Positions 8,451 through 25,600 of a stretch of DNA of 64,000 nt are shown in pieces; positions within the stretch are counted from its first letter, which is position 1, and each line of letters opens with the position of its first letter. Source of the DNA: Liolophura sinensis (taxonomy: Eukaryota; Mollusca; Polyplacophora; Chitonida; Chitonidae); the NCBI RefSeq assembly GCF_032854445.1, contig NC_088301.1:33216402-33280401 (forward strand), read 5' to 3'. Made by a program: the position numbers and the translations under genes. Below the pieces are notes generated by a model. That model was not told the origin of the DNA, ran no database searches, and saw only the letters and a program-made list of their open reading frames with translations.

Positions 8451-9889
8451 TACCTGAGCTGTTTACTTGATGGACAGAAGTTGATCCACAAACTTGACAA
8501 ATGAAAAAACCAATAGTTCCAGCCAACAGGTGGCATGTGATGACCTGCTGATTTAAGTTATGTTCCTTCATTCCATAGCCTGATCAGACATTTTGTTGCT
8601 CAGTGTGGGTCTACATGGTGATTCAGAAAGAGATAAAGATTTTTGCACTTATTTATTGAAGTGAAAGCGCTTGTTATACTGTGAAGGTAGGGCTTCACAG
8701 TATGCAACAGGGCTCACATGTTTGTCTAGAGTATCGTCAGACATTAAAGAGGTAACATGGTCTTCTTGTAGAGTGTTGCTATACTGGAATGTACATGTAA
8801 CCAGAAAAATGTCAAAAGTAGTATGAAAGCTTGTGAGAAACTGGACTCACAATTGGTAAACCATTTTTTATTCTCATGGACCACTGTGATGTCATTCTCA
8901 CCTTTGTTAATTAAATTCAACTGAGATTCTTGTAATATAAATAACAATATTATATTTAGTATGGAGTTTTTTTTTGTTTTTTTTTTAATACCCTGTATGA
9001 ATGCAGTGGGGTCATCTTGATTTACACTATCTGTCTGCATGCGTAATACAGCTGTTTTGTAGCCCTATATAAAACATCATCTCTTGTTTCACTTACTGTA
9101 AATCCAACCTTTTCAACCCTTGACCAGCATAGATATGTGATGACAGGACTTAAAATAATACATAAAACAGTCCGGCACTTTTCTGATGCAGGTATTGGCA
9201 AACAAAGAACTCTGAATCACGTGGCGCTAAAGGAAGATATTTTGCGCAAGTTTTCGTCAAATAAAAGCAATGCCTTTATCTACAGCAGTTGCTAAGAGAT
9301 TACATCGGTCTACTTTTTGTGCCATTTACTTTATCCCAGTGACTGCTGCACTGCCATCAAAAAAAATTTCTCTTTAATCTGGTACCCTGCCTTTTATGTT
9401 ATTATGAAGCTGTTGGGAGGAGTCATGAGCAAACTTTGGTTTGTATCATCTATCGCCGTTTTTTTCTGCCTTACAAAATCTGTGGAATGGGGACCATAAC
9501 CTGCCTAAGGCAAGTAAATTTATAAAGCAGGGTACTCGTAAAGCAGGGAGGATGCTGTGTGTAATGACAGAGAATGTGTTCTTTCACAGATTGGAACCGA
9601 CTTGTATACACTGAAGAGCATGCCCCACACTGAATAGACAACTCATTTAAATATGGATTGCATGTGTGCTGAACAAACGTTCCCATGCCTTTTGTGAAAT
9701 ATCAGCCAGGTCTATCGATGGACATAAGTAGCAGACAAAAGTGTTAATTAAATCCGTCGTGTAACAATTACATGTTCAACAGAAGCTAGAATTGAACTTT
9801 GTCGGGCCTCATTTACATCCGAACATTTGTTTTGGCAAACACATGTACTCATTTCAGTGGGTAATAGGCTTTGATGGAGTAACTTAATA
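8451..9889. other. Intergenic region after HSPB11, no gene seen
   Basis: AT-rich DNA holding the HSPB11 3'UTR (end not determined). I see no splice-supported coding segment. Short T-rich and A-rich runs occur near 8960-8990. Confidence 0.5.
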
Positions 9890-10423
9890 TTGAATTATAC
9901 TGTAGAACAAATTAAAATAAGAAACTGCAAAAATTCAGGCAAGACAAAATCACACTCAAGTGAGATTTGCAGGTCGTTAGGTAGATTCTTGTTCACGTCC
10001 GGCATCTCATTTCAAAGGAAATTCCTGTTGAAAGGCACGATTTATTACTTTAAGTCTATCCCTAAGGAACTTAATCTTGACGATCAGAGGCTTTACCTTT
10101 GCATGAAGATGATCCGAACAACCAACTTAAGAGAAAACCTATGGAGGATGGTTGTACCTGTACCATCCAATAATCTTTGTTAGACAAAGCCTTTTTGGTT
10201 GAGACACCCTTCCCTGGTTTTCCCAGACTGGTCACCACTTGACTACAACATGAGCATGTACAGGTGCCGAACCGGCCTTACTCGGGAAGAACTGTCTTTA
10301 AGAATATTTCTTTTGTCAGACACCCCCGTCATGCGCGTTCATGAGCAGATGCCAGATGCAGAACTATCACACATCATTAGGTACACACCTTATTTTCTGA
10401 AGCATAGCCAGTTATGCCAGTAG
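9890..10423 (+). pseudogene. Unrecognised coding-like remnant with one internal stop
   Basis: A single frame stays open for 178 codons apart from one TAG at 10181-10183. The segment has higher GC and CpG than its surroundings. Composition looks protein-like (for example LRIFLLSDTPVMRVHEQMPD), but I recognise no family. Just past the end, on the minus strand, a GTGTTCAAATCC B-box-like motif suggests that part of the stretch is an old tRNA-derived element. It may therefore be a transposon or SINE remnant instead of a gene relic. Confidence 0.25.
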
Positions 10424-10575
10424 GTGCTGGATTTGAACACACGACATCATTGGTCACTGTGAAAGCAATAAAAACAAACGAGCAAAATAGTTTAGCATCT
10501 TTGTATTGTTTTACTCATCATACAATAAAACCCACAGCCCCAATAGTTTTATTATATGATGACACTGCAACAGGT

Positions 10576-13500
10576 TTATTTCTTGGACTTAAAGTACTCG
10601 TTCAAGACATCTAAGGCTTGAGACTCCTTCCCATAATCCTACAAAATGCAATAAAAAAGAAAAGAGATCAGTACATAGTTATAAATGAAATGAGGTAGCT
10701 TAAGGTATTTAATATGTGTCTAATGTACTGAATTGGCAATTACCCTTCCATAAATTAGTTATGTTTGAAAAGAGATTAATTCCTCCACATTTATTTTGAT
10801 CAAAACATTTAAAATTCCGGTATACTATACATCCATTGGATGTTATGTGTTGACTGTACACAAATTTTAATGATCTGGTAAGTATACTGGAGTAAAGCTA
10901 GACATTAACACAAAAGCTAAACGGATACATATACGCATCGAAAAGATACTTCTTCCTCCCAAGACTACTTTGTCCCATTGATAGTAAACTTTAAGCACAG
11001 CACAAATGCTCTGATATCTTCAGACATAAGGCAATTGGATGCATTCCTCATTAAATATTCAGTAGAGGGAGCATATATTGTCATCACAAGATATGAGCAC
11101 TAACATGCTGGTTACTTGCAAGCAAATTGAGCAGGGGTTAGTTGCCTATTGTATGACACAGATCAACAGTACCCTTATGTTATTTCCATGAACTTGTCAG
11201 ACGTATTAAGGCATGTTCATATGATGTTTTTTAGCACCCTTAAATAGTACCCTTAAATAACTGGACATGTCACTGCAATGAATAGTTGACTGGTGTTTGA
11301 CACACCCCAATGGCATTCACAAAACTCCAATGCCTGAATACTTTCACAGCTTTCCTTACCTGACAGGTAAATGTCTATAACTATAAAAATACATGCATTA
11401 AGTTTCCTACTGAATGGAGTTGGCTCACCTTGACAACAACACAACTGCAGCCTACAACTTTCCTGGCTTTTCCTTCTTTGTCAATCTTGCACAGTCCAGC
11501 CCACTCGCCAAGTTTTTTGTTGTCTTCAACCTGAAATTCAAATAAATTTCATACAAAAAAAACATGTACATGTCAATTTATTTACTTGATTTGTGTTTTA
11601 TGCTGTACAAGAATATTTCATTTACACAACAGTGGCCAGCATCATGGTTTTAGAAAACCGAGCAGAGCCCATGACCTGTACATTTACTTGATTGGTTGCT
11701 ATGGGTTAAACAATATACTCATGAAATTATGTGATGTCATTCAGATATAGGACAATGAAATGACAAATGCTCAGGAATACTTTAATTTGTTCTTTGTCTG
11801 ATATCATATCTATTTAAATTGATTGAAGCATTATGGCGTAGTCAAGAGTATTTCACCAACATGACAAAAATCAGGTTTAATATTAGGTGTCAACATTCAC
11901 GAGTAAACTGCTCGTGCGATATTTTCAAGAGATATTTTGTTAGGTGAATAAAGTCCGATGTCCAAGTAGTGTTTACTCTGTTTTTGCCCACTTTGTAATT
12001 ATTTCCTTCATTCATTTAAATGGATTTAGGAGTGGTGATAGTTATGAAACTGACTTACCTTCAGCAAGTTGATGCCATGTTCATTACAAAGTGCCTCCAC
12101 TAACATCACATACATCGTCTCATCACAGTTGTTTGCCAGAATACACAGGTGAGCTTGACGTCTGAAACAGACCAAGATGCAGATTAATACTTGAACTACT
12201 CTACCGTTAAAATGATAAAAACATTCAATATAATCTCAGAAGTATCATTCCATTGTAAACCAATGACAATTACTGGTCATTACTACTTGCATTACTCAAG
12301 TCCCACACAGCTTTAAAACAAAAAAAAATCGGAAAAATGCAGAAAAAGTGTAAATATTAAAATTGGTATTACATCTGTATTTTTCTCAATACCACCTTAA
12401 AAAACATGTACCCTAATTTGTCAACCATTTTGCATATGCAAGATCAATTTTCAGTGCAAATTATGCACATTTTTAATTTGATTGTGAGACAGAACTGTAT
12501 TGGATTGGTCAGTCTCAGGGCTTCACAAAAAGTGTAATTTTCTCAAACACAAGAAAATGCCTTCAGAATACGCTTGAATTCACACCTTGAAAACATGCGA
12601 AAAGGTTGAAGAATTACAGCACCTTACAGTTACAGTAGTCATGGAGAGATAGGGGAAGCAACTCCTTCCACAAATCAGTTGTCTCCCATGCTGCATTATG
12701 ACTGATGCTGAAAAACTGTCTAGAAATCTAACAATGAAGCACCAATTTATATCATTACAATGATGCTGGAGTTTGCTTAAGTATGATGTAAAACACCAAC
12801 CAAATAAATAAATTACAATGACAGCATTCCACAAGAGGAAAAGGCAAAGCACTGGGCAATGCAAAAGCTGAATTACTAAACAGTAATGGCCTAACACTTT
12901 CTTACATTTTCTCACACCAATACACGATCTTACCACAGGAAAAGAGGGGATTGCTAACTTAAAGACAACACAGAAGGTAACACAGAATAATACAAACGCA
13001 TTCCTTGATTTACAGAAGAGGGAGCATACTTCTGAGCATATGTTATCACTATCAGAACTGAAAGTATTAATAGACGAGTCAGAGGACAGAAAATGTAACT
13101 TCTAGAGTTGTTCTCGTAAGGATACACTTTGCATAGATTTTTTCCACTCAATATAACATGTACAGGGATATCTAATTATGAATAAATAAGGAATCTGGAC
13201 ACTAATCCTTTAAATTTTCTTGATATGCTGCACTACCTGTTATGACAACATATTTTTCAGAGTAGCCTATATCATCTTAGCTCCACGAGTGAAGCTCACA
13301 TCTGTTTTAACAATGTACTAATGTATCGAGCAGGTAATGTATCCACTACTTGGATGAAATCGCTGGTGTTGGATGCAGAAAAACTTGCTTCCTAACAGGA
13401 CGCTTCATACATGCATAATAACAAGGACTGACCTGGTATATTTTTATGTCATTGAAGAGATTTGAGCATTTGTTGTCATTTTGTAGGTTTCTGTCAATAT

Positions 13501-16500
13501 ATACAGTAAATCGATGTGTTTTCACTGCCGGGGGTCTCCATCTCTGGGAATTAAAGTCTTGTTTCCATTTAACACAACCATGCAATCTCTTGTAAATTCA
13601 CGACATGTGCTTGCGGGTCTTCCCAGCCTAATTTTGAACACTGAACTGAGGGACGAAGACATTTGCAAATGACTGAGTTTGTGACGTAGAACTGCCGATT
13701 AAAGTTGTAACCAAGTCGCTTTGTCTCTCATCTATAAGTTACCATGTTCACAATGTTCTTCAAAACAGTCTGAGTTATCCATAAAAGCGTTGGCACTTGA
13801 GAGTGTGTTTCTTTTTTCCTTTTTGTAGGTTGTTGGGTTACCTGAATATGTATGAGCTATTGCGTACGCCACCTACTTTCATATGCCAACAACGCATTAC
13901 ATCCCATGGGAATCCCCAAGTCACATGACTGCGAGAACAGGCTACATAGTCCCCACTGATTTCTTTTAGGTTTGGGCGTGGCTTTATGCTGCTTGGTATG
14001 TTAGTGCATCATCAGATCAGCTGTGCCACACAAATGCGCCTATTATCATCTATACTATGAGGTTAAGAAATTTACAGCATCCAACTTAAAAACTCTTGCT
14101 ATCTACTCTTACGATCACTTTTAATGTAGTTTCCTTTCATATTGTGATGTCTCTTCTGTGGACCAATGAATCAGTTTCTAAAGACTTTTGGAATTGTCAC
14201 CTGCCATAAGAACACATTAACCATGGCTATGGAAGTTGACGCTCCAACCATTAAGCCAGCTGAAAGTCTCAGTTTTGCACATCATGTTGCCTGCCACCAT
14301 TTTACACTGTAGTTACACAATGGTACATAACATTTGCCTTGGTTTGCAAATAAATGTGCACTCAAGTTAGCCCCCCCACCCCCCAAACATTCATTTCTTC
14401 AAGTTGGACTATGAATCCCTGCAAAACAACTAAAGCTGAATTTTATTGGTGCTTATGTCTATTTTGAAAGACCTGTAAAATTCAAGAAAGGCCACTTGAT
14501 TTCCATGTCAACTAACAATGCTGGCCAATATACATTTGGGTCATATTTTCATCCAAGATTTCCCAGTTCATGCATAAAACAAACTCCTGTCAAAATTAAG
14601 ACAACGTATTTGGACGTAAATTGCATGAAAACATAATATATTGCTATTTACTCAAGATCACAAATAGTGAACATCTGAATTTGTACTCTTGTAGTATATC
14701 AAGCATGCTGCTGTTAAAACAAAAGCTTTAGAACCAGTCCACCATAACAGCAGAAAAATTTCAACATGCATGTTCCATATATTTTAACTGAGTCACTAAT
14801 AATTTGCACAGCTGACATACATTTGGCTTGAAGATTTAAAATTTTATATTCCAAAAATATACAATCTCCTGAGATAAAGAAGAGATAATAAATAGTTCCA
14901 AATAACACAGAAGCTATTTTGGGATCTTCAGTAATAATACAAATGCGTTCCACATTACATTCAGAAGAGGGAGCATATGTTTTCATCATCAGATCTCACA
15001 GTATTTATCGGTGAGTAGATGGGAAATGTACACTTTACAGTTGGTCTTTTCCATGTCATCCATTGGGTGGGGTGGGGTGGAGAGGGGGTGGGGGGGGTGG
15101 GAGGTTTTGTTGGGAATCAACAACAGCAGGTGTTGAAAAAAAAAAAAGGAATCATTTTCTGTACTGCAGCAGAGACTTGAATTACATATATATTTTAGTG
15201 GATACCCTTACTGTACATGACTTGAGATTTTTTCGATCGAAGTCATGCTCAAGAATTTTTCACTTATAAAACAGACGTAAATTTGAATGTGTAAGCTTGT
15301 AGCTTGAATCAATTTTTAATTTTATAACCAATAGAGTAGTTAGTGACAAACCTATAATAAGCCATGCAATTCATCCCGTGCAGCATATTTACCCATCCAC
15401 TTTCAGAATTAAGAAAAAAGTACATAGATTTTCATATAAATAAAGTAAGACTTACTTTCCCAGGGCTTTAGCACATTCATGAAGACCCCTCGAGAGACCA
15501 TCGTGGATCAGCGCATTTTTGAGCACCTCCTGTAAAGCAGTGTTTACATCCATAGAACCAATAGGTCCTGTAGGGACATCATCTCTGAAACACACATCAA
15601 GATGAGGATTAATAGTGTGAAGCACCTTACTTGCTTATTTTCTGGGTATGCACAAAGCTAACCATTTAGACACTGATATGCCATAATTTACTAACTGATA
15701 ATCAATGAATATACCTCTTTACAGAGAAAAAAACTAACTAACAGTGGGCCCAGTTTCTTCACATGACGTAAATAACTGAAGAATCCTCAGCGCAGTGGCA
15801 TATGATTGTCAGACTTCAATTCTGTCTCTGAAGGGCCAAATCAGGATTTGATTTTAGTAAAACTTCAAGTGATCCAGTACATTTTTTCACCTACTGGCCT
15901 GCGGTTTTTGTGAAAAATATTACCTTGGTCACTGTAAAAACCTGACTTTCAGATGTATCTATCCTTGTGTATCTAGTATTCATGTATTTAGAAAGCAACA
16001 GTTTATCTCCTGCAGGCTGCATAATTTCATGTTGTTGATGCAAAAAAAATTAGAGGTTCTTCCCAGCGTAAAAGACAATCCTCGAATGACTCACACATTC
16101 TCTGGAAATTTCTATGTGGCTGGCAAGGTAGGAGTCCCATGCACTGCCAAGCGAAACCAGGACTTTCATAGATTTTTGCGGAGTTTTACCAAAGGGTTGG
16201 AGCCCAGAATCACAAAAAACAAATACGTTCTCGCGCAATGATAAATCATGTTCTGTAAAAAAGTTCTGTAAAAGTTAGTCTAACGAGTGGTAATGAATCA
16301 GTATATTTTGGAGACTTTTCTTCACAAAAGCAGTATGGCTAATCATAGGTAATGTTTATTTTGCTTATACCTTTATGTGGAAATCTCACTATCAACATAG
16401 TCATGGCTAAACAACATCACAGATGTAGAAAGTGGTTGAATTGTTGATTACCTTATTTAACATGCTTTTTCGTCATTTTGGCCTATTAATGTTCCAGTAG

Positions 16501-18099
16501 ATTACAAGCAGGTCCAGGAAAAATATATTACTACTAGCCCTGCTGTCTAGTAAATGTTTGGGGGGAAAATAGAACCCTGCAAATGCAGAACAATGCAAAC
16601 ATTTGGGGAGAAAGGACATCATGTGCCTTTCACTCTTTGCCCTAAATTAGTGGTTTAGATCAACTGACCGGAGATAAAATTGTTTTAAGCGTAGAGCAGA
16701 AATGCAAATTTATCAGAAAATGGTGAAATGGTACAAGTTGGCTGCAAACAAGTAACTCTGATTACAATATGAAGTGAGCCTTTGCCATTATGTGTTGCCG
16801 GAAGCTTACTGTGACATTTCTTCAAATACATTTTACATCCTCAAATATTACTGGAGATTGTAAATTGAGTTCGACCCCATATTGCAAAAAGCAATCCCAC
16901 AGACAGTTCACACGTGGTAAAACATTTTTTTCTCTGCACAGCTACCACAAGAGATCTACGAAAGTTACCAAATAAAAATACAACTCATCTGCTGAGAGAC
17001 ACCAAGTTAAATATTCTAGGACACTAAATTAGTGGTTTAGATCAATTGACCGGAGATAAAATCGTTTTAAGCGTAGAGCAGAAATGCAAATTTATCAAAA
17101 AATGGTGAAGTGGTACAAGTTGGCTGCAAACAAGTAACTCTGATTACAATATGAAGTGAGCCTTTGCCATTATGTGTTGCCGGAAGCTTACTGTGACATT
17201 TCTTCAAATACATTTTGCATCCTCAAATATTACTGGAGATTGTAAATTGAGTTCGACCCCATATTGCAAAAAGCAATCCCACAGACAGTTCACACGTGGT
17301 AAAACATTTTTTTTCTCTGCACAGCTACCACAAGAGATCTACGAAAGTTACCAAATGAAAATACAACTCATCTGCTGAGAGACACCAAGTTAAATATTCT
17401 AGGACACATCAGACCTCGTTCTGAGCAGTGACTCTTATGGTTGCTTCACTTAAATTAGTTGATGTGGGCGTCATCTACCAGGACTGTCAAATATTGCCAC
17501 AAATACAATCTAATTTAATTGACTTATTTGTTTGGTTGGAGCAATACGCCATACCAAAGAATATTTTACTTAGCCTACTTCTACATGACGGTGTCTGTCA
17601 ATATGGTTCATATGGATCATTTTCATCCATCATCATGGATGAAACTGGGGAGATAACCAACTGAAGGTTGCTGCTACACTGAAGAGGAAGGTCACAGCAA
17701 TCACATTGGTGAAAGGCTCCAGAGTCATTGTGCTGTTACTTTAATAGAACCATATGTACAAGCAGGCCAACCTAAAATGCAGGGTCTTTAAAAGTGGTTC
17801 CAAAATCACAGCGAAACCCACAAAAAAGACAAAATTGGGCAAAACTTGTAGGACTCCTTATGAAGATTAAATTTGGGTAGAGCTAGGTCCCTACTGTTAA
17901 ACATGAGAGTGTACTTCAAGCCGTTCCCGAGTTGACCAGCAACAGATGACATATTACAATGCATTCCAGTGCCTACACTGGAATGGTTATTTCTATGCAA
18001 AATCACTTCAAGAATGACAACGATTGCCACGGCAGACGTTGTTGTTGTAGGTCACATGTATTTGCCACATATTCATACTAACCCTTCCGCATCAGACAT
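10576..18099 (-). CDS. RPS12: RPS12, 40S ribosomal protein eS12
   Basis: Five coding exons, 18083-18099, 15456-15584, 12059-12161, 11429-11530 and 10576-10638, join in phase (GG+A, AA+A, then two phase-0 joins) into 137 codons plus TAA; human RPS12 has 132. The protein begins MSDAEGDDVPTGP and carries the family signatures [35 protein letters not shown] and [20 protein letters not shown]. eS12 is a ribosomal protein of the L7Ae/L30e fold in the beak of the small subunit. All introns begin GT and end AG. A probable AATAAA signal lies at 10553-10548 on the minus strand. Introns 2 and 4 host snoRNA-like sequences. The gene converges on HSPB11. Confidence 0.96.
11013..11095 (-). ncRNA. Box C/D snoRNA in the last RPS12 intron (SNORD100-like)
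   Basis: Read on the minus strand: box C GTGATGA (11087-11081), box D' CTGA (11062-11059), a C'-like ATGAGGA, and box D CTGA (11023-11020). The flanks ATATCT and AGATAT form a perfect terminal stem next to boxes C and D. Upstream of D' the sequence GCTCCCTCTA is antisense to the conserved 18S rRNA stretch AGAGGGAGC. Counting five bases from D' selects the first G of GGG. From memory this fits human 18S Gm436, guided by SNORD100, which is itself intronic in RPS12. Length about 83 bases. Confidence 0.8.
11578..11690 (-). mobile_element. SINE family A fragment, reversed, in RPS12 intron 3
   Basis: Reads TGTTTTATGCTGTACAAGAA, TATTTCATTTACA, GTGGCCAGCATCATGG, AAACCGAGCAGAGCCCA, which is the reverse complement of the family A 3' half (compare 22440-22560). 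A smaller related piece follows near 11836-11860. Confidence 0.6.
12409..12620. mobile_element. MITE-like element, copy 1, in RPS12 intron 2
   Basis: Starts TACCCTAATTTGTCAACC and ends AAAAGGTTGAAGAATTACAG, which are inverted repeats of each other with few mismatches. The interior (CAGTGCAAATTATGCACAT, GGCTTCACAAAAAGT) matches copies at 31654 and 46985. Confidence 0.75.
12758..12815 (+). mobile_element. SINE family A tail fragment
   Basis: Contains ATGCTGGAG, then GTATGATGTAAAACACCAAC and CAAATAAATAAAT, the family A 3' end. In RPS12 intron 2. Confidence 0.55.
12980..13055 (-). pseudogene. Decayed box C/D snoRNA copy in RPS12 intron 2
   Basis: The same antisense element (complement AGAGGGAGC at 13017-13025) and the downstream GGAATGCGTTTGTATTATT are present, close to the copy at 14921. 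Box C is changed to GTGATAA, both D-type boxes read CTGT, the guide region is partly duplicated, and no terminal stem is evident. It is probably non-functional. Confidence 0.6.
14921..14997 (-). ncRNA. Box C/D snoRNA in RPS12 intron 2 (SNORD100-like, second copy)
   Basis: Minus-strand order: flank GAGATC, box C ATGATGA (14989-14983), guide GCTCCCTCTT, box D' CTGA (14964-14961), box D CTGA (14931-14928), flank AGATCCC. Flanks pair as a terminal stem with one mismatch. The D' guide is the same as in the copy at 11013, but the stretch before box D differs, so any second target would differ. Length about 77 bases. Confidence 0.75.
15063..15112 (+). repeat. G-rich tract, possible G-quadruplex
   Basis: Repeated GGGTGGGGTGGGG-type runs with at least four G-tracts, in RPS12 intron 2 about 70 bases upstream (in transcription) of the snoRNA at 14921. 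It is C-rich in the transcript. Confidence 0.8.
16643..17407. repeat. Two tandem copies of a 382-bp unit
   Basis: Unit 1 (16643-17024) and unit 2 (17025-17407) both begin TAAATTAGTGGTTTAGATCA and end TAAATATTCTAGGACAC. I count about seven differences, so they are about 98% identical. They lie in RPS12 intron 1 and contain no recognised gene; the matching 61-68 codon ORFs are just the copies. Confidence 0.95.
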
Positions 18100-18247
18100 C
18101 GTGAATAGCGGACGTCCTTCTGCAAAATAACACAAAATTTGACATGAGTGCAAAGTACAATATCTTTATTATCAAGATACTTTGTTAAAAAGTTGTCTGA
18201 AAGGTCGATGTTTAAGGATGGAAGCCTAAAACATCGTGAGCACTCAC

Positions 18248-18289
18248 AATGATATCCCGCACGCGTTGAAAGTTACGGCGAAAAGGAGG
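18248..18289 (-). promoter_or_regulatory. RPS12: Probable RPS12 5'UTR exon with 5'TOP start
   Basis: On the minus strand a ten-pyrimidine run (CCTCCTTTTC, from 18289) followed by GCC looks like a terminal oligopyrimidine start, usual for ribosomal protein mRNAs. A donor ATT/GTGAGTG follows at 18248/18247, and an acceptor TTATTTTGCAG at 18121-18120 precedes the ATG exon. This gives a 42-base leader exon and a short 5'UTR intron. A CGGAAG (ETS-like) lies just upstream near 18295. Inferred from motifs. Confidence 0.5.
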
Positions 18290-18299
18290 CTAAACGGAA

Positions 18300-20354
18300 G
18301 TGTTTGCCTGACCCTGCATATGTAGGGTGAAGGTCGATTGTGGTGACCGGACATCGTGACAAGTGAGTAATAGGGATGAGTAGATCTGTGTCAAATGTGT
18401 AAACATTGGATAACAAAGTGAGTGCAGCATGGCTTATAGTCCGTTCGAGCGCAATTCACAGTCAATATTGTGCGAAGTTTTAGTACGTTAGCATGTATTA
18501 AGAGTTTCGTTTAGAATAGGAATTTTCCATGTTGATGTCTTCTTGGTAATATTATCACTGACTCAGCATGTACCGCACGAAAGTAAGACCATTCATTTAA
18601 GGCCATTAACTCCAGAATTCGCCAGTGTTGGTGGTATATCTGTTGTCCTAGGTAAATTTAGATTAATAGTACGGAACAGCATAGAATAGAATATTTAGTG
18701 CACGTCTTAGAGCAATAAAAAGCAATGTTTACAGTTAGTATTTTAAGACAATAGGCCTGCACAGCGGGGTATCAAGCAGATATTCCTGTCACACTGAATG
18801 ATGCTGCAGTGCATAGAGGCTGGCATATGCCTACAGAAAAGGTCCAAATAGCTGCCAATACAACACTTTTGTTTCTTCTGTGACGCTGCCGTGCTTGGTT
18901 ACTTTCTGGCTGTTTTATGAGTCCACATACATCGATAATTGTGACATAATAAAAGAAAGAAGAGAAGAGTTCATAGCTTTGGACCATCCTCTTACAGGTG
19001 GATGGAATTTTATGAGTTCCTCATTGCGAATCCAATGGCTTCAATCTTTTGTTGCCCAACACGTTATTTATGGCGTATCAGGTCTGCTTATTGTGATGTT
19101 GGTCTGTTTATATTGAAGTAGGATATGCAGCAAAATGATGTTATACTTGTATGTCCCACTTAGGTCTTTTGGTGATATGTTATTAATACTGAATTAAATT
19201 ATTGTCATTTAATTAAACATTTTATTGTAAGTAATGGAATAAGGAAAATGATTGATAGGAGCAGAAGCAGTAAAGAAATCCATTTAAATAGATAGATGTT
19301 CTCAGTCATGTGCTTATTACACATACCAGTATATATATGTTCACATGAATTGGTCTACAGTCGATACCCTGTGTCTGTAAATGCTGACCAGAATTTTCAG
19401 GCTAGGGCTGAGGAAAACAAGTGCAAGGACTAAACCATCAATTCTATGATGGCATCCCTTATAACTGATAGGGCTCTTCCAAATTGACCTTCCATGAGCT
19501 TGCTTTTCCATAAAAGAAAGACACATGTACTCTGAAAATGGCTAATGGTAAATTTCCAATTTCAAGATATAAGGCCTGTGATTGTTAGCACATACACTGT
19601 AGGTGAGGTGAAAATACAGGTGTATACAATGGCCAATATGTGCGTTGATTCACCTTGAGACTTTCAATTCTCATGATGGTGACTGAATTAAATTTGAAAT
19701 GTTAAGATTGTCTAAATGAATTTCCAAAAAGTTACATTGCTTATTTATTGCTTTCTGTATAATTCTCAATAGGTTTTAAGAAAAGTGTAGTGTTCAGATG
19801 CTGCATATATCTGTTACGTGAAATGAACATTCAACCAGACCAAGCCTTATGCTGTCATCAAAGAGCCACTCACATGTAACTTGGATTAGGAAGTCTAGGT
19901 ATGACAGGTGTAGAAAGTGATCTCCCTTTAACTGCATAGGGATAAGTTTCACTACACTGTATTTTACTTTCAGTTGCTGTAGTATTTCAGAAAAATTAGT
20001 AAGAAATTCAGCTATTGGATATCCTGTGGATGAACAGTTTTCTGGAAAAAATTTTTTGTGTGAAAAAGGAGTTTCATGATATTGTAAAGTTTGGTTGTTA
20101 GAGTTGAGCAGCTAAAGAATTTTAATATTATTTTCTCAGTCTCTGAGATGTAGATCAATTTCTTAGATGTACAGTGTAGCATTTATTTTGTGTTGTACAC
20201 ACACGTCAGTATGAATTACAATACAGTGGCTTTCAACCACATTGATGATGTTAATTGATATGCTTCTTCTCAATTTACTTACATTGTAAATCACTGACTG
20301 GTAATAAATCATCGTACTGTAAAGGCTGAATGTATTATTTTGTATTTCGACAGC
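18300..20354. other. Upstream flank of RPS12, no firm gene
   Basis: The first 300 bases are moderately CpG-containing and hold GT-donor-like sites (GACAA/GTGAGTAA near 18360). A plus-strand transcript starting here is possible but not shown. The rest is AT-rich without supported exons. A diffuse repeat resembling family A lies near 19380-19470. Confidence 0.4.
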
Positions 20355-20364
20355 TTACCAGTGA

Positions 20365-20546
20365 ATGTGGTGGCCCTGCATATCATCTGCTCTTTCTAAA
20401 CTGCATAGAAAACAATATGCTATGCAGCAACTTGGCATTTGGAACATTCAAGATTTGTGCAGCTTCCAAGACATACACAGGGACATAGAGTTGACCTGCA
20501 TGCAGAGAGTCAGAATGGACTTGAAAATGTTTCTTTTCTTGGAAAG
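20365..20546 (+). CDS. Candidate early exon of the unrecognised plus-strand gene
   Basis: After AG acceptors at 20353-20354 or 20409-20410 (TTTCTAAACTGCATAG), one frame is open to a donor AAAG/GTAGC at 20546/20547. It ends in phase 2 (AG), which fits the exon at 30358 (starts with one completing base). ATG 20365 has an in-frame TGA immediately upstream, so it could be the start. The end LKMFLFLER followed by GETWLMSV from the next exon reads like two beta strands. No homology is recognised; the call rests on splice signals and phase. Confidence 0.3.
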
Positions 20547-22317
20547 GTAGCTTGATGCTTGTGCTTTTCAAGACAAGTTTTTTAAGGTAAGTGTTTGTAT
20601 AAGTTACTAGTCTGTAGAACACATGTACACATTTATGTGAGTAATTTGTATGTGAATCAATGCTGGCCTGATCCAGGATCTTAATGCCAGTACGGTTTAT
20701 AATGGATTGTTTATTTAAATGGGACTGAAAATGGTCTAACAGAAAGGTATGCTAATTTACTGTTTTGCCTGGTGTATTGTGGTAAAATTTCCCAAAACTA
20801 ATCTTTAATCTCCAAAGCATTTTTTTTAATTTATTTTTAATTTCAGTTATGGTGTTTATGTGACAATTTGTTGAGATCTGGATTAGTCTTTCTGTTTCAC
20901 TGTAATGATCAAAAAGACACATACTGCACCTGTTCCTTACCATAGCATAATGAACAGTGATAATTAATGCGGCCAAAGTTCTTCAACTTGAAGGAAAGGC
21001 AAGGTTACGTGCGATGTTTACAGCTTATTAATAAACAATGTTTGAGCCTGCACAGTGTGACAGTAGATTAAACATGCTTTGTACAAGGCCAGATAAGCCT
21101 TCAGAGGACCAGGAAAACCTTTAAAGGCCCTAGAAAATCTTGCAACTTAAAAAATTGTAGAGACACAATTCCAACCTTTCTAATTATTGTTTTTGAACAA
21201 TTCAACTTTTTGTCATTTAATACAGTGTTAAATTAAAATTAAAAGAAGTTTGTACTCCAAAAGTGTCTTTGCAAGGTTCTTAAGTTACAATTAATTGGCT
21301 CCAGTAGTCTTTAAGTATTATGTTGTTTAGACCCATAAATGATGTGGTTAGATCATAAAGAATTACACTCTTCAGGACATTTTGTCTTGATAGCTAAGTA
21401 ATTTTTTTAGTACTTAAAACTCTTTCACTAGATTTTTGAAACTTTAGTGGTTTTTGCTGATGTTATGAAAATGTTTCTTATAAATTGTTCGTTACATTGC
21501 TGTATTGATATTTCCTTTTTTGTGGTTAAGAAACGGGACATAAATAAATCAATTCTGATACACAGTATGGTTATGTGAAACAAGAATATGAACTTATTTT
21601 GTGCACATATTACTTTATTCATACACATGTGTGTGGGTTGTTACCATGCTTGTTTTAGCAGATGGATATATATCTTTGGCAAGACATACATGTTCTTTTA
21701 GCAGAAGATATTTCAGGTGTTGAATGACAAGAATTCTTTCAACTGAAGAAGTAAACTCTTCTGGTTGCTGGATGTGTACTTTTGGGAATAAAAATTGAAA
21801 TCATACAAGGACGTCTTTATGTGAACATGCTGAGAAGAGGATCAAACAGAAACATGAAATACTGCATACACCTCAGTTCGGCCTGATGGATTATAATGTA
21901 ATACTGATAACTGACAGTGTTCATGCAAGAAGCAAGGCAATTTTTTGAATTTTGAAAGACCAAGTCATCTGCACAGAAGAAATGAGCTTGATGTGATTTG
22001 AAAGGAAACAAAACGGGTAAGTGCCATTGCTTTGCAATACAATTGAAAATCAATTTTTATGCACATCTATCTTTCTAACATTTATGCTAACTACAGTCTT
22101 AAGTCTTAAGTTATAATGGATCATATAAACCATGAAGAGATACATGTAATAGACGTGATTAATTGCCTAATCAGTTTACATGTTTGAACCTCGTTCTTTG
22201 GGCCATTTTATTTAAAATTGTGTACATCTACATGTGATGCAGACCCCTGCAGGCTGGGTTCATCCTGAAGACATCTACCCTTGAGCAATGAGGTTACATG
22301 TTCGAATCCAGCAGCAG

Positions 22318-22592
22318 GGCCTCCGTGGCTTAGTTGGTTAGCGCAATAGCGAAGTGTAATGATCCAGGAGTCTTTCACCAATGCGGTCGCTGTGAGTTCA
22401 AGTCCAGCTCATGCAGGCTTCCTCTCCAGTCGTACGTGGGAAGGTCTGGCAGCGGCCTGCGGATGGTCATGGGTTTCCCCGGGATCTGCCCGGTTTCTTC
22501 CCACAGTAATGCTGGCCACTGTGGTATAAGTGAAATACTCTTGAGTACGGCGTTATACACCAATCAAATAAATAAAATAAATAAATAAATTA
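22318..22592 (+). mobile_element. SINE family A, full-length copy with target-site duplication
   Basis: The tRNA-like head has an A box (TGGCTTAGTTGGTTA) and a B box (GAGTTCAAGTCC). A central domain follows (CTGCGGATGGTCATGGGTTT), then a tail CTTGAGTACGGCG, CACCAATCAAATAAATA. It is flanked by AATCCAGCAGCAG (22305-22317) and AATCCAGCATCAG (22593-22605), a 13-base duplication with one mismatch. Confidence 0.92.
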
Positions 22593-22605
22593 AATCCAGC
22601 ATCAG

Positions 22606-25600
22606 CTAGAGTATACAGTACATGTAGCTACAAATACAGCTATATTATCACATGTCCAAGCACTTCAAGTTTCCTTAGGACTCTTCCCACTTCCCTTTGT
22701 CCATAAATCTGACTGCTCTCATATAACAGAATATTCCTGATTATGACATAAAACACCAGTGACACAGCTAAATGTAACTGTTAAACTGAGTTGAGCTGTT
22801 ATCATGGTCTTCAGTTGAAGAGGATAGTGCCATAGTGAGTCATCACTGTGTATACAAAACACAGACTTAAAATCCAACAGACTGTTATTATATGGCCTGG
22901 TAGCTGCTCCGACATTTAAGTTACCATGAGAAAACCTTTACACCTATTACACCTGCACATGTAATACATCATCTTCCCCTGTGAACATTGTGATGTTTTA
23001 CAAAAATGTGGCATTGTAAACAGGCAATGAATATCTTGGTTTTAGTAATGATTTTCTGCTGTTACTCCTTGCGTTGTTTGTTAGCAAGAATTAATTTTAG
23101 TATGAAAAAAATCTCCAGAGATAACACAATTTGATTAAGTTATAAGCATAATTACCTTTATAATTAATCAGTCATTCACTCAGTGCGTGGCAATAGTTGC
23201 ATTTTGTGACCAAAAAATGAAAAAAACAAAAAAAAAAAACATTACAAAGGTGCCTGTTTAAAAGATGCCTGTTTAAAGCAAAATCAATATGCATTTTGCT
23301 AGTTTTAATTTTCAGCAGTGTTCTTTTGGTATTTGAAAAAAAAAAAAAGCACAGAAAAGCTACATGTACAGTTTAGCTGTGGGGTGTTTCTGAGGTCAGT
23401 TCAGTCAACTGACGTGTATATTTACATATTAGGCCACAGCCAAGTTTTATGGTATCTTAGCTCATAGTCCCGTGTAGTGTTCATACTGCATGTGTTAATA
23501 CAGCAGTTCATGCGAGTCAGGAGTCAGCCTCTCAAGGGTAACCCTTTGTCAAGAACTGTATTAAGAATCAATAGATTTCTGATTATTGGCTGCTTTATTT
23601 ATCACCCTTCCTCGCCATCCGGCAGATATCTACCAAGATAGATGGATAAATAATAAGTTCATTTTAGAGTGAGATCGATCAGTACTATCTAGGTCGTAAA
23701 ACCATGGCACTCCCTAACCTCAATCTCACACCTTTATTACCTTTTCATTGAGACGGAAAGGCTTCCAAAAACCAATAAATTGATCAATGTTTGTGGAGAG
23801 AGTTTTTTATTTATTTATGTAGTCGGGGGGAAAATCCATATGTTTTCCAATAAAGTTTTTATTATTGTAAGTAGGAAATGAAAAAGAGCTGAGATTAACT
23901 TTTTTTATTTCCATTTTTAATCAGGCTGTTATTTTAGGCGGATGGATATTGATACTTGGTGACTTTCTACAGGGATGAATTCAGCCTTTTATTTTTTATT
24001 TTTTGAGGTTCATTTTCGTTTACTGCACATGGACCTCAGTCCCTTACAACTTTGAGGATATTCATACACACGACAGTTATATAGACAACAGTGTTTTATT
24101 GGTTTTCAATGTCAAGAAGATACATTGCCTCATTGCCTGTCTGCCACATGATTTTGTTTCTTGGAAAAGCAACTTCTTACAGAGGCCTGTTTTATCAAAG
24201 TGCCTGTCTCACTGGGAGATATGTGATTCTTTAAGGTGATAGACTATGTAGCATAACTAATGAAGTTTTCTGTCCCAACTAGCCCAGTCTGTCAAGTTTC
24301 ATATTGATATTTCAGCAATCTCATTGATTTTTCTTGAAAGGAAATGAATGTGGTCCATCCCTCATTTATGATCCTTGTCCAAAACCCGCTTTTCTTCTCT
24401 TTACTGGCCGTCTTCAGTCGTGGAAAGTGGTCAGCCTGTATACACATCAATATCCATGCATTGCTCTTCCATATACATGTCTTGTGAACTACCAGCTTGG
24501 TACTTGGTACAGTTGAGAGCCATTTCCAGTCTGCACAAAAATTTTACACATTTGTTGTAACTACCATAGATGGATATATATTTATTTTCAAACCTATTAC
24601 AAAAATCATTTCTTTACTATTTTGTTACCTGCCACCAACTGTCTGTTCCATTTTGCCTCAAACTTGTTCAGTCCATGTTGGTTTTATCTATGGTAAACTT
24701 TACAGACAACCCAAAATGCACTTATGGCTATGGCATGAAGCACCAATGAAATAAATAAATAAATAAATCAAAATGCACTTATACAGGCATATAAACTCCC
24801 CTATTTCTTGTTTTTATGTTTACCTGTAGTTGTTCTAATCACATTTTGATTGCATTTCTATGGCTAGATTGAAAAAAAAAATTTCTGTGAGGTGCTGATG
24901 GTGGCATCAGCTATAATAAAACAATTAAAATGGATAAATTGCATTTAAAGTTCCATGTAAACATCAGAAAAGGTTCAAGAAATAGGGTATTTACACACTT
25001 GATTTATGGGAAAAGCATCTTTTGCAGAGGAATATTTTTTCAAAGTGCCTGTCTCAGTGGAAGATATCTTTCTAAGAGTTATACATCTTTCAAGACCAGT
25101 GTCTAGAATTCTTTTTTTCTCAGTTCCTCATAGGTTTTAAGATGAGTATTCCTGGAGATTTTGAAGGTATGCAAATAATAGTAACTAGAGAATGCCAGTG
25201 TATGTGATTGTGAAGTGCTTTATAAAGCAGGATTAAACAATATGTCCCATTGTGCCAGCAAGTTCTTAAACGAAAAGACATGAGAAAGAATTGCGCCTAT
25301 TTTTTATGAAAAAGGAACACTGGTTGATCTTAATTAATACAGTCATTAAAGGTAGAATAAAACATAATGTCCATAGGAGAAACTCATAGATCCTTATTTT
25401 TTGACAAGTTCTAAAATGTGTGTGTACAAATAAGCTTTTTCAGTCTTTCTACTAGGGGTTAAATTGGCTTAAAAAATAAAAATTTATTAGGTCTCAGGAA
25501 TCTGCCAGACAGTTTATGACAGATTATGATATCTATAAAAACAGTTATTAAGGCAAGAGCAGTGTGAGAGGGCACAAAGCCTCCATGTATACACACAGGC

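Follow-up and report, generated by a model that had tools for sequence, protein, structure and literature searches.

Putative SNORD100-type box C/D snoRNAs, two intact copies and one degenerate copy, in introns of the RPS12 gene of the mollusc Liolophura sinensis

The window analyzed here is a 64 kilobase (kb) stretch of contig NC_088301.1 of the mollusc Liolophura sinensis, taken from a genome of 609 megabases (Mb) in 632 contigs. On its minus strand it carries the gene for the ribosomal protein RPS12 (eS12), and the introns of this gene hold two intact box C/D small nucleolar RNA (snoRNA) genes of apparent SNORD100 type, called copies 1 and 2, and a degenerate third, called copy 3 (Table 1). 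Four RPS12 exons translate to the stop codon across GT/AG junctions. The resulting protein matched the Pfam L7Ae/L30e/S12e family with an expectation value (E) of 3.8e-28 and the eS12 chains of solved ribosomes with a best E of 3.4e-65. Furthermore, a genome-wide protein search with RPS12 returned four exon matches, every one at this locus. The host is a genuine RPS12 gene.

When positions 9000–18000 of the window were scanned with cmscan against 4227 Rfam families, SNORD100 (RF00609) was the top family for both copies, and both matches were full-length (model positions 1–81) and on the minus strand, which is the sense strand of RPS12. Copy 1 matched at 11014–11094 with 39.5 bits (E 9.2e-6) and copy 2 at 14921–14997 with 31.2 bits (E 0.0021); the remaining four matches all had an E of at least 1.5, and three of them were other C/D families on copy 1. 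Across the genome, where RF00609 scoring covered 61 of the 37132 first-look candidates, copies 1 and 2 ranked first and second and the next match reached 25.3 bits, in a list of 10 matches at E ≤ 10. Run on 14 prokaryote control genomes, the same loose search gave matches in 12, all below the cut-off, and we therefore regard the tail of the genome list as noise. In addition, a generic C/D scan (RTGATGA, with CTGA 50–110 nucleotides (nt) downstream, closed by a stem of 5 base pairs (bp) or more, G-U permitted) over the full window and both strands gave two hits, copies 1 and 2, each with the guide described below. In 40 Markov-simulated windows, the number of generic hits averaged 0.7 with a maximum of 3, and guide-bearing hits were found in 0/40. 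The exact pattern of box C, guide and box D' occurred at three places in the 609 Mb: copies 1 and 2 and C7:53897287, which is considered at the end.

By direct reading, both copies have a box C of the form RUGAUGA, a box D CUGA and a closing terminal stem, as box C/D snoRNAs do. Both also lie in sense orientation in RPS12 introns, and their D' guide, like that of the SNORD100 consensus in Rfam, is one for the Gm436 site of 18S. The terminal stem of copy 1 has 6 bp (AUAUCU/AGAUAU), and of the six modelled stem pairs all are formed in copy 1 and 5 in copy 2. At one of these positions both bases differ between the copies (U-A in copy 1, G-C in copy 2), and pairing is kept. The two copies are identical at 62 of 78 aligned bases; the guide and boxes D' and D are invariant, and box C differs solely at R. 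The guide is 9 nt long, and one base separates GCUCCCUCU from the D' CUGA in both copies. On the D side the stretches read UUGCCUUAUGU in copy 1 and UUGUAUUAUUA in copy 2, unlike each other and unlike the Rfam consensus. Copies 1 and 2 can be aligned mainly within the snoRNA itself. A first-pass annotation of this DNA had placed two C/D copies at 11013–11095 and 14921–14997, with boxes C, D' and D, a terminal stem and a shared D' element, and cmscan and direct reading both confirmed this; the covariance search that it proposed for the two loci returned RF00609 as the best family for each, though below 58 bits.

Several results weigh against reading the pair as working SNORD100 genes. The 64 kb window contains no match at the Rfam gathering threshold, since both copies score less than the 58 bits set for RF00609, a curated search threshold and not a biological feature. 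The count of two generic C/D hits is by itself within chance. Folding-energy z scores of –1.16 and –1.52 for copies 1 and 2 are unremarkable (copy 3, –0.04), as expected for C/D RNAs. Finally, the genome gave no match to the 18S or 5.8S of this species with two 18S patterns or with the 5.8S family (39 of 13377 first-look candidates scored), which may mean that these genes are unscored or unassembled and is not evidence of absence. We nevertheless filed the pair as putative SNORD100-type snoRNAs despite the sub-gathering scores, because SNORD100 is the best of 4227 families and matches at full length, and because anatomy, guide and host agree with it.

A model made solely from copies 1 and 2 was used to look for further copies. 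It detected copy 3 with 37.9 bits (E 3.7e-7), and the next match had 14.0 bits (E 0.62). With the filters off, the model gave 29 matches up to E 10 in positions 10500–20000, and the best of the 26 beyond the three copies had 14.7 bits (E 0.064). The top match in the E4/E5 intron reached 10.0 bits (E 1.0), and this intron holds no SNORD100 copy. Copy 3 preserves the guide GCUCCCUCU at 13017–13025. When copy 3 was aligned with copy 2, the box C position (13043–13049) read GUGAUAA, a 12-nt insertion lay between box C and the guide, and a 9-nt deletion made box D CUGU and eliminated the 3' half of the stem. In the model's own alignment, the gaps fall elsewhere and there is likewise no good box C. 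Copy 3, with GUGAUAA, CUGU and no 3' stem half, does not have the makeup of a box C/D snoRNA and was excluded from the members; these changes in the core boxes should break the kink-turn needed for assembly. The first-pass annotation reported the two intact copies and had overlooked the degenerate third. Copies 2 and 3 also share their surroundings: a local alignment of about 210 bases joins the two segments with a score of 114, and the maximum of 100 shuffles was 40. Within the snoRNA, 56 of the 66 bases aligned are identical, with 26 gap columns; the figures for the flanks are 39/48 (6 gap columns) and 56/81 (12 gap columns). Because the homology extends into the flanks, we conclude that copies 2 and 3 stem from a segmental duplication of DNA within one intron, the E3/E4 intron.

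Table 1. Features of the RPS12 locus, in window coordinates; exons are numbered in mouse style.
Feature	Position	Strand	Basis
Copy 1, putative SNORD100-type box C/D snoRNA, last RPS12 intron	11013..11095	-	cmscan RF00609, generic C/D scan
Copy 1 box C GUGAUGA	11081..11087	-	direct reading
Copy 1 D' guide GCUCCCUCU, complement of 18S AGAGGGAGC	11064..11072	-	direct reading
Copy 1 box D' CUGA	11059..11062	-	direct reading
Copy 1 C'-like element UGAGGA	11045..11050	-	direct reading
Copy 1 box D CUGA, then 3' stem half	11020..11023	-	scan and direct reading
Copy 2, putative SNORD100-type box C/D snoRNA, RPS12 E3/E4 intron	14920..14998	-	cmscan RF00609, generic C/D scan
Copy 2 box C AUGAUGA	14983..14989	-	direct reading
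Copy 2 D' guide GCUCCCUCU	14966..14974	-	direct reading
Copy 2 box D' CUGA	14961..14964	-	direct reading
Copy 2 C'-like element UGUGGA	14949..14954	-	direct reading
Copy 2 box D CUGA, then 3' half of 5-bp stem	14928..14931	-	scan and direct reading
Copy 3, degenerate pseudo-snoRNA	12975..13049	-	model of copies 1 and 2; alignment with copy 2
Segment homologous to 14837–15047	12892..13114	-	local alignment
Copy 2 and flanks, partner of 12892–13114	14837..15047	-	local alignment
RPS12 coding exon E3	15456..15584	-	translation and splice sites
RPS12 coding exon E4	12059..12161	-	translation and splice sites
RPS12 coding exon E5	11429..11530	-	translation and splice sites
RPS12 last coding exon E6, with stop	10561..10638	-	translation and splice sites
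E3/E4 intron, 3294 nt, contains copies 2 and 3	12162..15455	-	donor GTAAGT, acceptor TTTCAG
E4/E5 intron, 528 nt, copy-free	11531..12058	-	splice sites
E5/E6 (last) intron, 790 nt, contains copy 1	10639..11428	-	donor GTGAGC, acceptor TTGTAG

Counted from D' in the upstream direction, base five is the final C of CCC, which lies opposite the G that begins GGG in 18S AGAGGGAGC. The Rfam SNORD100 consensus has the identical guide in the identical register, which agrees with the earlier placement of the methylated base by the five-base rule; the SNORD100 identity, the Gm436-type target and the link to RPS12 proposed with it are likewise borne out by the sequence. Human 18S Gm436 is assigned to SNORD100 (PMC9941101; PMC3412847; here and below, statements on cited papers refer to the portions of their text that were available). 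Gm4362 of 28S (PMC4463414, PMC8817022) came up as well and is irrelevant to 18S Gm436. An 18S primer from a bivalve study ends in AGAGGGA, which covers 7/9 of the target bases (PMC3271234). Guide-target duplexes were computed on one published primer and on two assumed 18S contexts. All three copies have UAU before the guide core GCUCCCUCU, and the Rfam consensus has CUG there. If mollusc 18S reads AGAGGGAGCAUG, the guide of the copies would form 12 pairs (the last G-U) versus 9 with the vertebrate-type context, and the guide of the Rfam consensus would form 9 versus 10, both contexts being assumed. A literature search for GAGCATGAGAAACGG found nothing, and one for AGAGGGAGCATG found nothing on 18S by title; in the text available, its letters were seen in a prawn-virus primer and a mouse genotyping primer.

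We consider it very probable, at about 0.92, that copies 1 and 2 represent two paralogous SNORD100 genes of functional appearance, which would guide Gm436-type methylation. As regards expression and processing, we infer that both snoRNAs would be carried in the RPS12 pre-mRNA and freed when the debranched introns are trimmed. A C/D kink-turn, closed off by the terminal stem, would cap each snoRNA, which would be loaded with SNU13, NOP56, NOP58 and fibrillarin. As regards modification, the D' guide would pair with 18S AGAGGGAGC and direct 2'-O-methylation of the first G of GGG, the equivalent of human Gm436. A second intact copy would most likely provide dosage or redundancy at this single site. 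Copy 3, the sister of copy 2, no longer has a good box C, and its box D and stem are gone.

Alternatively, one copy only could be active, probably copy 1, with copy 2 decaying as copy 3 did. Copy 2 does score below copy 1, its stem has one pair fewer, its C'-like element is UGUGGA and its sister is already broken, but its boxes C, D' and D, its guide and its closing stem are all intact, and we hold this alternative to be unlikely. The copies could also have specialized, the D-side stretch of one or both acting as a second guide for a new target. Dual-guide C/D RNAs are common, and the D-side stretches do differ between the copies, which had led the first-pass annotation to suggest divergence toward a second target. 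However, this side is poorly conserved both between the copies and against the Rfam consensus, as expected for an arm that does not guide; the suggestion found no support, a second target is unlikely, and we regard specialization of the copies as decidedly improbable. That the pair reflects chance likeness or inert intronic repeats is scarcely credible, for although the Rfam scores lie below threshold and a count of two generic C/D hits in 64 kb falls inside the simulated range, boxes, stem, guide, host and strand coincide, no simulated window gave a guide-bearing hit, and a genome DNA search with each copy found itself and the other copy only, unlike a dispersed repeat, in a search that missed even copy 3 and is therefore blind to decayed copies.

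The reading of copies 1 and 2 as paralogous SNORD100 genes places them beside known systems. Compared with human SNORD100 (HBII-429, RF00609), the mollusc pair is alike in its full-length match to the model, in the D' guide core GCUCCCUCU adjoining D', in host and in strand; it differs in the sub-gathering score, in the presence of a second intact copy and a broken third, and in UAU for CUG 5' of the guide core. Sponges and vertebrates both have SNORD100 inside RPS12, and its expression in a sponge has been verified (PMC3412847); the host gene and the target site of the sponge snoRNA are the same as those of the mollusc pair. The antiquity of the host link, which the first-pass annotation put before the split of protostomes and deuterostomes, is therefore correct and had already been published in a stronger form, from sponges to vertebrates (PMC3412847). 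The available text of the sponge study mentions no duplication of SNORD100 and describes other sponge snoRNAs as duplicated in cis into neighbouring introns (PMC3412847). The mouse gene Rps12, with its ATG in exon 2, carries Snord100 in its fourth intron and Snora33 in its fifth (PMC10287158), whereas the E3/E4 and E5/E6 introns carry the mollusc copies. Provided that the introns of the two species correspond, as we suppose, both mollusc copies would sit in an intron other than that of mouse Snord100, and the host would be conserved but not the intron. A published table sets the plant snoRNAs snoR30/snoR58 (18S Gm390–392) beside SNORD100 and Gm436 (PMC3511168), and plant Gm392 is listed with human Gm436, with the yeast entry blank (PMC11542601); the methylated site is common to plants as well. 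In the one literature collection searched, with some papers judged by title, no earlier account of a mollusc or protostome SNORD100 in RPS12 was found. What is new here is a mollusc SNORD100 member and its presence in two introns, neither of which would be the mouse intron. Overall, the mollusc pair is a clear but ordinary additional example of SNORD100 in RPS12.

The pair adds a mollusc to a pairing of snoRNA and host older than the split of sponges and vertebrates (PMC3412847). It also hints at how the pairing has lasted, with the host retained while further copies of the snoRNA arise inside it and some of them degenerate. With two copies intact and a third broken, the gene is a minor natural case of what the 'constrained drift' model describes for the evolution of snoRNAs (PMC3511168). 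A bolder account would be that SNORD100 in molluscs keeps its host and not its intron and is re-copied within RPS12 while copies die, that the UAU of the guide co-changed with the 18S bases 3' of AGAGGGAGC (a 12- versus a 9-bp duplex), and that the spare copy is free for a second target; we think this full combination unlikely.

Elsewhere in the RPS12 gene, a search for the 5' untranslated exon and the ATG exon gave 4 mechanical candidates, none convincing. Neither Snora33 nor SNORD101, which we take to be another vertebrate RPS12-intron snoRNA, was among the Rfam matches up to E 5 in positions 9000–18000 and 15000–24000. Upstream of the identified RPS12 coding exons lies a head-to-tail duplication (16642–17407) with units of about 382 bases at 98–99% identity, which TRF did not list. 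A G-rich tandem repeat (15065–15104), its unit being roughly 9 or 21 bases long, lies about 70 bases from copy 2.

Two places elsewhere in the genome were considered as additional copies and set aside. At C7:53897287 (L006:1500–1555), box C and the exact guide are followed by CUGG at D', and the CUGA boxes farther on would be closed by a stem of just 3–4 bp; this place scored 21.3 bits with RF00609 and 8.2 bits with the two-copy model, and is probably a chance match, possibly a remote decayed copy. The locus ranked third with RF00609 (L003) lacks the guide, was not picked up by the generic C/D scan and did not match the two-copy model up to E 5. On the minus strand of the same locus, positions 934–996 weakly match the nematode snoRNA ceN114 (27.1 bits against a cut-off of 44, E 0.042), either by chance or as a C/D snoRNA of another kind. 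Finally, the genome looks like that of a haemocyanin-bearing mollusc: eight haemocyanin beta-sandwich units (PF14830) stand consecutively within 12 kb at C8:37880506–37891931, 8/8 above the cut-off, an eight-unit arrangement that we take to be of the mollusc type.

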